DNA from: Deferribacteraceae bacterium V6Fe1
GTDB lineage: Bacteria > Chrysiogenota > Deferribacteres > Deferribacterales > Deferrivibrionaceae
Direction of reading: 5' to 3'
Assembly: GCA_022813675.1 (NCBI GenBank)
Contig: CP063375.1
Location: 1,562,001 to 1,626,000 of the forward strand
Length of the DNA: 64,000 nucleotides
The notes beneath the pieces are model-generated. The model saw only the letters and a list, made by a program, of their open reading frames with translations, was not told the DNA's origin and did not search any database. Positions 45,617 to 50,594 of the stretch are shown in pieces. A program made the position numbers and the translations under genes. Positions within the stretch are counted from its first letter, which is position 1. The number at the start of each line of letters is the position of its first letter.

Positions 45617-46042
45617 ATGTCAGTACAAAAAGATTCAAAAATTAAATTTCACTATTCTGTGACAATTGAGGATGGAACTGTTGTTGATTCAACGATAGAT
45701 GAAAATCCGTTGGAAGTGCAGCTTGGTAACAATGAACTTTTACCAAAGCTTGAAGAAGGTCTTATAGGTATGAACAAAGGTGATGAAAAAACAATTACTC
45801 TTGCTCCTGAGGATGCATTTGGTCCTGTTATGGATGAGGCAATTACCGATATTCCAAGAGGTAATATCGAGCTTGACGAATCTGTTCAGGAAGGGATGTT
45901 TATCGACCTTAGCGATGAAAAGGATCAGATGTACAGAGGTTTGGTTAAAGAATTAAATGATGAGTTTGTAAAAATAGACTTTAATCATCCTTTGGCTGGA
46001 AAAACACTTACTTTTAGTGTTAAAGTTGAGGAAATTTTATAA
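45617..46042 (+). CDS. slyD: FKBP-type peptidyl-prolyl isomerase, SlyD-like
   Basis: Peptidyl-prolyl cis-trans isomerase and chaperone, 141 residues. FKBP strands IKFHYSVTIEDGTVVDST, LEVQLGNNELLPKLEEGLIGMNKGDEKTI and the insert-in-flap domain (EDAFGPVMDEAITDIPR ... MYRGLVKELND) are present, followed by DFNHPLAGKTLTF, the SlyD-type signature. It lacks the metal-binding His-rich tail of E. coli SlyD. GAGGTGATGT precedes the ATG. Its terminator lies inside an opposing small gene. Confidence 0.92.
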   Translation: MSVQKDSKIKFHYSVTIEDGTVVDSTIDENPLEVQLGNNELLPKLEEGLIGMNKGDEKTITLAPEDAFGPVMDEAITDIPRGNIELDESVQEGMFIDLSDEKDQMYRGLVKELNDEFVKIDFNHPLAGKTLTFSVKVEEIL

Positions 46043-46177
46043 TTTTTTAGGCTTGTTATTTGAACAGCTACAAGAGGCTCCGCACCCGCAGGAGCCTTTT
46101 TTTGTTTTATTAATTATCAAAATAAAAAATACAAACAATAAGAAAGTAACTGAAAATATAAGTATAAAGTATTTCAT
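46037..46177 (-). CDS. 46-residue Cys-rich membrane protein, minimal NqrM-like
   Basis: Too short for usual gene calling. The ATG (46177) directly abuts the nqrF stop, with GGAAG upstream, making it the last gene of the nqr operon. Residues 2-22 form one membrane helix (FILIFSVTFLLFVFFILII). After KTKKG comes SCGCGASCSCS with four cysteines (C30, C32, C36, C38), then NNKPKKL. NqrM, the Na+-NQR maturation protein, is also encoded after nqrF and has one helix, then a GSCGG segment and further cysteines. It is usually longer (about 60-85 residues). So this may be a shortened NqrM or another small metal-binding protein. It overlaps slyD by 6 bases. Confidence 0.72.
   Translation of the reverse strand: MKYFILIFSVTFLLFVFFILIINKTKKGSCGCGASCSCSNNKPKKL
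46075..46103 (+). terminator. intrinsic terminator of slyD, inside the opposing small gene
   Basis: Stem AGGCTCC / GGAGCCT with a 9-base loop, followed by seven T. It lies in the Cys/Gly codons of the 46-residue minus-strand gene, so one sequence serves as coding DNA and as terminator. Confidence 0.88.
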
Positions 46178-47404
46178 TTAACTTCCAAAATCATCAAATC
46201 TTATGTTCTCCTTTTCTACACCCAGACTGTCAAGCATATTTAATACCGAGTCAAGCATCATAGGTGGTCCGCAAAGATAGTATTCCACGTCTTCGGGAGC
46301 AGGGTGGTTTTTGAGGTAATTTTCATACACAACTGTATGTATAAAACCGGTATAACCTGTCCAGTTGTCTTCAGGCAATGGTTGGCTCAATGCAACATTC
46401 CATGTAAAATTATCATACTTTTCAGCTAAATTATCAAAATCTTCCTGATAAAATATCTCTTTTAAACTTCTTGCTCCATACCAAAAACTTATCTTTCTTT
46501 TGGAGTTAAGCCTGAGCAGTTGGTCAAAAATAATAGATCTCAATGGTGCCATACCAGCCCCGCCACCTATGAAAACCATTTCCGCATCAGTATCGGAAGC
46601 TTTAAATTCACCGAATGGTCCCATTATCATAACCTTATCACCGGGCTTTCTGCTAAAAATATACGATGAACCTTTTCCTGGTGGGATAGTGCAGTCATAT
46701 AAAGGTGGGGTGGCTATCCTTACATTTAGTTTAATAATACCTTTTTCAAGCGGATAATTTGCCATTGAATAGGCTCTGATTACTTCCTCATCAACCTTTG
46801 ATTTAAGACTTAAAAGGCCGGTATCTTGCCAATCTTTGATATATTGTTCCCCAATATCAAAATCTTTAAAATCCACCTCATAAGGCGGAACTATAATCTG
46901 AATGTAGCCGCCAGCTTCAAAGTCAAGGTCAACCCCTTCCGGGAGCTTTAACGTAAATTCTTTTATAAATGTTGCAACATTGTCATTGGATATAACTTCA
47001 CATTCCATCTTTTTGGCACTAAATATTTCAGGCGGAAGTTCTATTCTCAGATCTTTTTTTACCGGCAGCTGACAAGAAAGTCTGTACCCTTCTTTTGCTT
47101 GCTTTTTATTGATATGAGATTTTTCAGTAGGTAAAAGTTTTTGCTCTTTATCCAATACTTTTACTTTACACTGACCGCAAGAGCCACCGCCACCACAAGC
47201 TGATGAAACAAAAATCTGATTATTTGCCAGCGCATTAAGAAGTTTTTCCCCGGGATTGACTATTATTGGATTTGTTTCATCGTTATTTACGATTATTTTC
47301 AACTTCCCCTGCGGGACAAGTCTTCTCTTAGATTCTATGATAAAACCAACAAGAATTAAGATAATTAGAGTAAAAAATACAACACCCAAAACTATTACTG
47401 TCAT
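46178..47404 (-). CDS. nqrF: Na+-translocating NADH-quinone reductase subunit F
   Basis: NADH-oxidising entry subunit of Na+-NQR, 408 residues. Order: N-terminal membrane helix (about 3-23), 2Fe-2S ferredoxin domain with C70, C76, C79 and C111, the same numbering as the well-studied Vibrio protein, FAD domain with RAYSMANYP, and NADH-binding domain with [14 protein letters not shown] and [10 protein letters not shown] near the C-terminus. It passes electrons from NADH through FAD and 2Fe-2S to the membrane. It is the last large gene of the nqrABCDEF operon, 12 bases after nqrE. Confidence 0.96.
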
Positions 47405-47416
47405 TAAAACTCCCGA

Positions 47417-48028
47417 TTAAAGTTTAATTCCTGAGAATAACATAAAAGCGATTGCCATAATTCCGGCCATTATAAATGTAATACCTATCCCGTCCAATCC
47501 TTTTGGGACGTCGGAATACTTCATTTTTTCTCTTATCCCAGCCAATGTTACAATCGCAAGCGCCCATCCAACCCCTGAGCCCAGACCGTAAACAACACTT
47601 TCGCCAAAGTTATAATTTCTTTGTACCATAAAAAGTGTACCACCCAAAATAGCACAGTTTACAGTTATGAGCGGGAGAAATATTCCAAGCGCGTTGTATA
47701 AAGCAGGCATAAATTTATCAAGAAACATTTCAAGCACTTGCACCAATGCAGCAATAACACCTATATAGGTAACAAGCCCGATAAACGTAAGGTCTACATT
47801 TTCAAATCCCAACCAAGACAATGCGCCTTCTCTTAATATGTGTTGATATATGAGGTTGTTAACAGGTACTGTTATTGTCTGTACAACTATTACCGCAATA
47901 CCAAGCCCTTTTGCTGTCTCAATTTGCTTGGAAACAGCCAAGAAAGTACACATCCCTAAGAAAAAGGCTAATGCCATATTTTCTACGAATACAGACTTAA
48001 CAAAGAGGCTTAAATAAGCTTCAACCAT
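47417..48028 (-). CDS. nqrE: Na+-translocating NADH-quinone reductase subunit E
   Basis: Integral membrane subunit of 203 residues, about six helices, homologous to RnfA. It has [29 protein letters not shown] and [24 protein letters not shown], whose cysteines contribute to the intramembrane Fe-S cluster formed with NqrD. The C-terminal [20 protein letters not shown] matches the family. The start overlaps the nqrD stop by one base (TAATG). Confidence 0.95.
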
Positions 48029-48636
48029 TATTTTTCTTCCTTAATAAGTAGTTTTACGCCCCATATAATAAGTCCTATGAGGAAAAAGGCACTTGGTGCA
48101 AGCAAAAAAAGACCGTTAGGAGTATACCATCCGCCATTGTTAACTGTAGTTAATACTTCTACACCAAAAAGTTTTCCTGAGCCTACAATTTCCCTGAAAA
48201 AACCTACAATGATTAAAATAAGCCCATATCCTATACCATTTCCAAGGCCGTCAAGTAGGCTGTCGATAGGTTTATTTTTTAATGCGAATGCTTCCGCTCT
48301 GCCCATTAAGATGCAGTTGGTGATTATAAGTCCTACAAAAACAGATAGCTGTTTGCTAATGTCATACATATATGCCTTTATAACCTGGTCAGCTACAATT
48401 ACAAGCGATGCAATTACAGTCATTTCAACGATTATCCGAATACTTGGCGGGATAAAGTTTCTGATTGCACTTATGGCAAAATTTGAAATACTTAATACAG
48501 CCGTAACGGATAAGGCCATTACTACAGAAGTTTTTAGGTTTGAAGTAACAGCAAGGGCGGAGCATATCCCTAAAATCTGAACAGCTATAGGATTATTTTT
48601 AAAAATAGGGTCAAAAAATAGATTAATTCTTTTCAA
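48028..48636 (-). CDS. nqrD: Na+-translocating NADH-quinone reductase subunit D
   Basis: Integral membrane subunit of about 202 residues, homologous to RnfE, pairing with NqrE. Signatures: [20 protein letters not shown] near the N-terminus, [20 protein letters not shown] and [19 protein letters not shown] near the end. I chose TTG 48636 because AAGGAG lies 7 bases upstream and [12 protein letters not shown] gives the usual N-terminus; an ATG at 48657 in the same frame is the alternative. Either way it overlaps the nqrC end. Confidence 0.93.
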
Positions 48637-49405
48637 TTGGCAGCTCCTTATGCTCATTTAGGTATTTTAAAAGATAACCAAATCCTTTATCACCGAGCCA
48701 GAATCTTACAAATGAGTTAACCCCATTGGTAGTCATTGTAGCCCCGGAGAGGCCATCTATTTGATATTGCCAATCTTCACTATTTTTGTCTGGATTTCCT
48801 TTTATAACTTTAATTTTAAGGTTACCGTTTTTATCAAAGATTTTTTTGGATTTCCAAAGAGCTTTCCATTTAGGATTATCCACCTCTCCGCCAAGCCCAG
48901 GTGTTTCCTTTTGGTCATAAAAGGTTAGCCCTTTTATAGTGCTTCCATCCTTTTCTATGGCTATAAAACCATACATCGTTGACCATAACCCGTTACCATA
49001 AATCGGCAATACGATACAGTCCAAATTTCCATTTTCATAAAAGGCATAAAAGGGTATTTTAGCAGGTATACTCTTGAAACCCTCAAGTTCCCCGTCAAGT
49101 TTTATACTTGTATTGGGATTTTCGGATAATTTTTTGAAGTTTTTAAAATATTTACTTACATCATTTGCAACCTCAATATTTTTAGTATTTAGGTCGAAAT
49201 AAAATATTTTAATTTTTTTAAACTCTTCTTCAAGATTATTAATATCTTTTCCCGCTGCAATAAGGACATTTTTGTTCCTTTCAAGCTCCTCATTTTTTTG
49301 CTGAATAGGTTTTAGCAGCACGGCGGCCAATGATACGACAAAGGAGAAAAAGAGTGCCAAAATAAGTGCTGTAAGAAATATCTTTTTATTAGATTCTTGC
49401 TGCAT
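48623..49405 (-). CDS. nqrC: Na+-translocating NADH-quinone reductase subunit C
   Basis: Membrane-anchored periplasmic flavoprotein, 260 residues. One N-terminal helix (about 10-30) precedes the FMN domain. The covalent FMN site is [12 protein letters not shown] with T223, matching Vibrio T225. [20 protein letters not shown] and [15 protein letters not shown] are family motifs. FMN attachment needs an ApbE transferase, not found in this window. It overlaps nqrB by 17 bases. Homologous to RnfG. Confidence 0.95.
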
Positions 49406-50594
49406 ATTTTTTTTCTCTTCTTTTTATATTTCCTTCTATCACAAAATGATCAATAAGTGGTGCCATAATATTTGCAAATAGTATTGCAAGCATAGCACCC
49501 TCTGGATATGCAGGGTTTACTATCCTTATAATTGCTGTTAATGCACCTATTAAGAAACCGTAATAGTACTTCCCCTTTTCAGTCATTGATGCCGATACGG
49601 GGTCGGTAGCCATGAAAACTACACCGAAAGCAAAGCCTCCTATGATAAGATGTGTGAGAGGGCTTAGCTGAAACATATAATTTGTATCACTTCCAATCAT
49701 ATAGAATACAGAAGATACGCCGAGTAGACCGATTACGGAGCTTAATATGATCCTCCATGAGCCAATCCCCGTATAAATTAATACAAATGCTCCAAACAAG
49801 CATGCAAGTGTCGATGTTTCCCCCATTGAGCCGGGGATGAATCCTAAAAAGGCATCAGTTAAACTATATGAAATGTTCCCTGTGGAAGCCATTTCAGCAA
49901 GAGGGGTTGCCTTTGATATTGAGTCAAGTCCAACCCATACCTTGTCACCTGACATTGAAGCAGGATAAGCGAAAAATAGCACTGCTCTTGAAAAAAGTGC
50001 GGGGTTTACAATATTTCTCCCCGTGCCGCCAAATACCTCTTTTCCTAAAACAAGCCCTATCGAGAGTGCAACACTTGCTTCCCACAATGGGACTGTTGGA
50101 GGCAGAATAAGAGGGTAGAGGAGAGAAGTTACAAGAAAAGCTTCCCCAATCTCATGTTTTCTTACTACGGCAAATAATAACTCCCAAGTGCCGCCGACTA
50201 TCAGTGTAATTATATATAGAGGGAAAAAGTAAAGACTACCAAGGAAAAAGTTGGAGCCAATACTTTTATAATCGTAAGGGATATTAAAAAACTCCATTAA
50301 AGTATGCCTAAAGCCGATGGCAGTCTTGCTATTGTCAAGGGCATAAGCAAGGTTTGCCTGATATCCGGTATTGTAAAGAGCCATAATAACACAAGGGATA
50401 AGAGCAACAACTACTGTTGTCATTACACGCTTGAGGTCTAAGCCGTCTCTAATATGTGTTTTACCTTTAGTTCTGTTAAGTGGAGTGAGGATAAAAGTGT
50501 CTATCATTTCAAAGACGGGGAAAAGGCCCTCAAACTTTCCACCTTTAACAAAATGTTTTTCAACCTTAGCAAAAAACTCGGCAAGTTTTTTCAT
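49389..50594 (-). CDS. nqrB: Na+-translocating NADH-quinone reductase subunit B
   Basis: Large membrane subunit with covalent FMN and the quinone/Na+ region, 401 residues and about ten helices. The FMN threonine is T230 in SISKATPLAEM (Vibrio T236). DGLDLKRVMTTVVVALIPC near the N-terminus, GGTGRNIVNPALFSRAVLFF and FMATDPVSASMTEKGKYYYG are characteristic. Homologous to RnfD. It follows nqrA by 15 bases. AGGAGAAT precedes the ATG. Confidence 0.95.
   Translation of the reverse strand: MKKLAEFFAKVEKHFVKGGKFEGLFPVFEMIDTFILTPLNRTKGKTHIRDGLDLKRVMTTVVVALIPCVIMALYNTGYQANLAYALDNSKTAIGFRHTLMEFFNIPYDYKSIGSNFFLGSLYFFPLYIITLIVGGTWELLFAVVRKHEIGEAFLVTSLLYPLILPPTVPLWEASVALSIGLVLGKEVFGGTGRNIVNPALFSRAVLFFAYPASMSGDKVWVGLDSISKATPLAEMASTGNISYSLTDAFLGFIPGSMGETSTLACLFGAFVLIYTGIGSWRIILSSVIGLLGVSSVFYMIGSDTNYMFQLSPLTHLIIGGFAFGVVFMATDPVSASMTEKGKYYYGFLIGALTAIIRIVNPAYPEGAMLAILFANIMAPLIDHFVIEGNIKRREKKYAARI

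Follow-up and report, generated by a model that had tools for sequence, protein, structure and literature searches.

The 46-codon open reading frame directly behind nqrF in Deferribacteraceae bacterium V6Fe1 is, to judge from its conservation at the protein level, a real gene that is kept in the order Deferribacterales, and it forms the true end of the nqr operon. The encoded peptide is probably the Deferribacterales counterpart of NqrM, delivering iron to the NqrD/NqrE centre, and may be either a shortened and diverged NqrM or a recruited peptide of the FeoB-associated type. It probably works like NqrM; by sequence alone it cannot be called an NqrM. Assembly of the NqrD/NqrE iron centre is poorly understood, and the peptide would be a compact counterpart with a Cys pattern of its own, tied to nqr order-wide. 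The dedicated factor known to date for this centre is, as far as we are aware, NqrM. NqrM is needed for maturation of Na+-NQR (Kostyrko et al. 2016, as cited in PMC12174285), and is thought to supply iron for the intramembrane centre of NqrD/NqrE, or to insert it (PMC12174285, PMC6209661).

We analyzed a window of 64,000 nucleotides from the genome, which consists of one contig of 2,358,333 bases. On the minus strand, the genes nqrB to nqrF extend from 50594 down to 46178. Gene order and sequence identify nqrB (49389-50594), nqrC (48623-49405), nqrD (48028-48657) and nqrE (47417-48028), and nqrF (46178-47404) matches TIGR01941 with 638.8 bits. NqrD keeps Cys 32 and 115 and NqrE keeps Cys 27 and 125, which we take, from the NQR structure, to be the expected ligand positions of the intramembrane Fe/[2Fe-2S] centre. 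The small frame (46037-46177, 46 residues plus stop) is co-directional with nqrF. The nqrF stop occupies 46178-46180 and the ATG begins at the immediately next base, as the original prediction had it, except that the strand (minus) was then left unstated. The upstream sequence, TTTTGGAAGTTAAATG, contains GGAAG (46182-46186, minus strand) within the end of nqrF, 4 bases ahead of the ATG, which may act as a ribosome-binding site.

The translated product, MKYFILIFSVTFLLFVFFILIINKTKKGSCGCGASCSCSNNKPKKL, has a single hydrophobic stretch at about residues 3-23, followed by NKTKKGSCGCGASCSCS (the tail after the hydrophobic stretch is also given as KKGSCGCGASCSCS). Cysteines lie at residues 30, 32, 36 and 38 with the spacing CxCx3CxC, so that the build that had been described, one membrane helix and then a four-Cys tail, is borne out by hydropathy and sequence. 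Among the 60 long open frames of the window, nqrF alone has a small ORF with a helix and at least three Cys within 25 nt of its stop, which indicates that the small ORF is more than chance.

Relatives with nqr carry the same small gene. Of the 23 Deferribacterales genomes with nqrF, 19 have an ORF with helix and Cys whose start is offset by -4 to +6 bases relative to the nqrF stop, and the first tail Cys is at residue 30-32 in all 19. Nearly all members of the family have four or more thiols. In an alignment of 18 sequences the first tail Cys (C30) is the sole invariant column, with conservation of 90% or more at two other Cys columns. Between the window species and its nearest relative, whose NqrF is 98.5% identical, the small ORF has accumulated 7 synonymous changes and 1 non-synonymous change.

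The peptide is encoded with nqr, and within the order only with nqr, apart from a few exceptions (G022, G044 and the Calditerrivibrio group). The family profile matches 21/23 nqrF-positive versus 2/23 nqrF-negative genomes of the order (Fisher p 1.6e-8, with shared descent ignored). One of the two nqrF-negative matches is in a Calditerrivibrio-group genome that is incomplete (G022); the other is weak (G044). The most telling contrast is found within one genus, where G016 carries both nqrF and the peptide and G009, a 99% complete genome, carries neither. In line with this, nqr is reported from just two Deferribacter genomes out of four, those of D. desulfuricans and D. thermophilus (PMC13186404). 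A search of one literature collection returned no paper that pairs Deferribacter with Na+-NQR, nor FeoB-associated with nqr.

The Calditerrivibrio group provides evidence against a counterpart of NqrM, as its nqrF genomes G003, G010 and G017 have no such ORF behind nqrF. In G017, G003 and G022 a short version was found behind hemD instead, overlapping the hemD stop; in G010 none was found behind hemD either. The hemD-linked genes (L085, 753-884; L101 and L102, both on the minus strand) encode 43 or 33 residues: the form of G017 has 43 (MRFFLLFIITLVSFFFFMVAIYRKKRCCSGGGESSKKKGCSCN) and that of G003 has 33 (MKFLAIFLFSLLFIVIFMFIIGKRKKVCGCGRR), with G022 near-identical to the latter. As few as two thiols are left in the Calditerrivibrio form (VCGCGRR). 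The family as a whole ranges from 33 to 77 residues in the order, and the member in G016 also has 43. The suggestion that the window protein is about the smallest version thus had to be abandoned, since relatives of 43 and 33 residues are shorter. Relocated or 33-residue forms constitute a natural set of minimal variants. In G019 (L084), a possible copy lies about 138 nt behind nqrF and reads without a stop into a longer lipoprotein-like frame, possibly due to fusion, frameshift or assembly error.

The peptide was not recognized by the Pfam model for NqrM. PF04400 (DUF539; cut-off 22 bits) gave no match, not even a weak one, to the window protein or to other family members, and none in any genome of the order, the genome under study included. 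The 14 control genomes had no match either, while a positive control of 8 plasmid records with nqr yielded NqrM in 6. As far as tested, no nqrM was detected elsewhere in the genome and the frame is conserved, although the profile search proposed with the original prediction went against it. Of 11 NqrMs in other phyla that are supported by context (position and sequence), 5 escape the model as well, so that its silence in the order is weak evidence; the model seems too narrow for distant phyla. NqrMs that are recognizable behind nqrF/apbE and go unreported by PF04400 occur at L061, L064, L066, L073 and L077. While the order has no PF04400 match, the ligand cysteines of NqrD and NqrE are kept, so a maturation factor is still to be expected, and the lack of an annotated NqrM in a member of Deferribacterota does not have to imply the lack of such a factor.

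In build and position the peptide resembles NqrM, which is also small, has its helix at the N-terminus followed by basic residues and (G)SCG, usually contains four Cys, and is likewise encoded at the nqr operon end and co-present with nqrF. The first tail Cys is at 30-32 in the Deferribacterales family versus 32-34 in NqrM. In our NqrM alignment C33 is invariant and G34 and G35 are at least 90% conserved; in V. harveyi NqrM the first Cys (Cys33) alone is reportedly critical.

Several details differ. Canonical NqrMs have at least 52 residues (shortest, L139) versus 46 here, and were rightly described as longer. The shared GSCG start was correct in part: GSCGC keeps S, C and the first G of [ST]CGG, whereas the second G is replaced by Cys. 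All four cysteines are present, in a compact CxCxxxCxC rather than the usual C-x(about 10)-CxxC of NqrM. A helix Gly 10-13 residues before SCGG is found in 72 of 76 NqrMs; the window protein lacks it, as do almost all other members of the family, although L128 of Thermodesulfobacteriota, which lacks the usual Gly-containing MxxG, still scores as NqrM. The operon position is similar rather than the same, because NqrM usually follows apbE and the peptide directly follows nqrF, with apbE unlinked (about 169 kb away in the same genome); nqrM of Enterobacter, on the other hand, does directly follow nqrF. The earlier term minimal NqrM is supported for a real nqr-linked gene with a helix, four thiols and a first Cys near the NqrM position, but not with respect to PF04400, SCGG or the helix Gly.

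Profile-profile comparison places the family somewhat nearer to NqrM than to FeoB-associated peptides. With hhalign, the family matched NqrM at 94.9% (score 41.9; enlarged set, 94.4% and 40.7) and the FeoB-associated set at 90.4% (score 33.1; enlarged set, 86.6% and 32.4). Shuffles of target columns reached at most 29.8 for NqrM (200 shuffles) and 32.4 for FeoB-associated, but leave the shared order of helix, basic residues and Cys intact, so that shared descent and shared build are not fully separable by these scores. On single members, the NqrM profile mostly gave 3-11 bits (best 20.7); 14 of 18 outscored almost all shuffles of the respective sequence, and few did so with the FeoB-associated profile. 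Short sequences with helix and Cys can resemble each other without common descent.

Operon-end position, the invariant first Cys, and near-universal presence in nqr genomes without a detected nqrM are together most simply explained by a counterpart of NqrM. Its single helix would anchor a basic, Cys-rich C-terminus that is predicted to face the cytoplasm by the positive-inside rule. The thiols of the CxC...CxC tail may bind iron or an Fe-S precursor, and the bound iron would be passed to the Cys4 centre that lies between NqrD and NqrE, as thought for NqrM in Vibrio. Such a peptide could have arisen as a shortened, strongly diverged NqrM, or by recruitment of a FeoB-associated-type peptide into that position. 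The more radical version, that an iron peptide of 33-77 residues, FeoB-associated-like and unrelated to NqrM, displaced NqrM order-wide and non-orthologously, is a possibility that we advance only tentatively and that we do not favor. If true, it would mean that the minimum for building the NqrD/NqrE iron centre is a single helix with just two thiols.

Compact helix and Cys peptides in the nqrM slot are not confined to Deferribacterales. Two were found elsewhere, of 48 residues at L058 (G095) and 56 residues at L079 (G378), and compact forms may accordingly be more general. Both peptides lie behind a CBS-domain gene, that of G095 also behind apbE, and neither slot has a canonical NqrM. A CBS-domain gene also follows nqrM in some alphaproteobacterial nqr operons (L051, 8378-8773; L053, 8385-8777) and recurs near nqrF in other lineages; its product is possibly an NQR regulator.

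The peptide could also be of the FeoB-associated type (PF12669) in function, sitting in the nqr operon and serving general ferrous-iron handling or Feo transport. We consider this unlikely, even though length, single helix and compact Cys-rich tail are similar and PF12669 is the best Pfam match of the window protein (22.7 bits, E 1.2e-4), outscoring PF04400; together with the missing helix Gly and SCGG, this also speaks against a counterpart of NqrM. The score is below the family cut-off of 27; with an E limit of 10, PF12669 matches 13 of the 18 family members (best E 1.4e-5). The hhalign values of 87-90% with the FeoB-associated set and the occurrence of feoB in nearly all genomes of the order would fit such a role, but FeoB-associated peptides are encoded next to feoB or fused with it, and here the gene is linked to nqrF, with the genome's own feoB (G000:C1:862923, versus 1608046 for the ORF) about 745 kb away. 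The CxCx3CxC tail is also unlike the published FeoB-associated motif, Cx3-5Cx2-3Cx6-8C (PMC8749426). Presence of the peptide tracks nqrF and not feoB, as genomes with feoB and without nqrF mostly lack it. Certain genomes of the order carry true FeoB-associated peptides immediately after feoB (for example, L092, 1492-1650), and these are distinct from the nqr-linked ones. Some genomes hold both kinds, which argues that the nqr-linked one is not simply a misplaced part of Feo.

Operon-end position, a single helix and co-occurrence with nqrF would also be expected of a small subunit, structural or regulatory, of the Deferribacterales Na+-NQR that has no role in maturation. This reading is less plausible still, given that the Cys tail with its invariant C30 is the most conserved part, which suggests metal or thiol chemistry, and that a PDB profile search with the family returned no significant match.

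A chance frame, with Cys codons that are a by-product of the terminator of the convergent FKBP gene (45617-46042), is already refuted by conservation and is extremely improbable, because 16 genomes from other genera show this protein pattern in the corresponding position although their nucleotide sequences differ, and synonymous changes outnumber non-synonymous ones 7 to 1 even though the hairpin is kept in its genus. The terminator-like hairpin, AGGCTCC-GCACCCGCA-GGAGCCT with a T run (46072-46100, plus strand, z -3.38), coincides exactly with the Cys codons of the small ORF; it is absent from the list of a separate pattern scan. Its sequence is common to three species of the genus. With the Cys codons inside the hairpin, conservation of the tail at the DNA level among species of the genus is no proof by itself, and it is the order-wide protein pattern, kept by other genera with different DNA, that proves the gene. 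The one stretch thus seems to be in double use in these three species, coding on the minus strand and serving as FKBP terminator on the plus strand.
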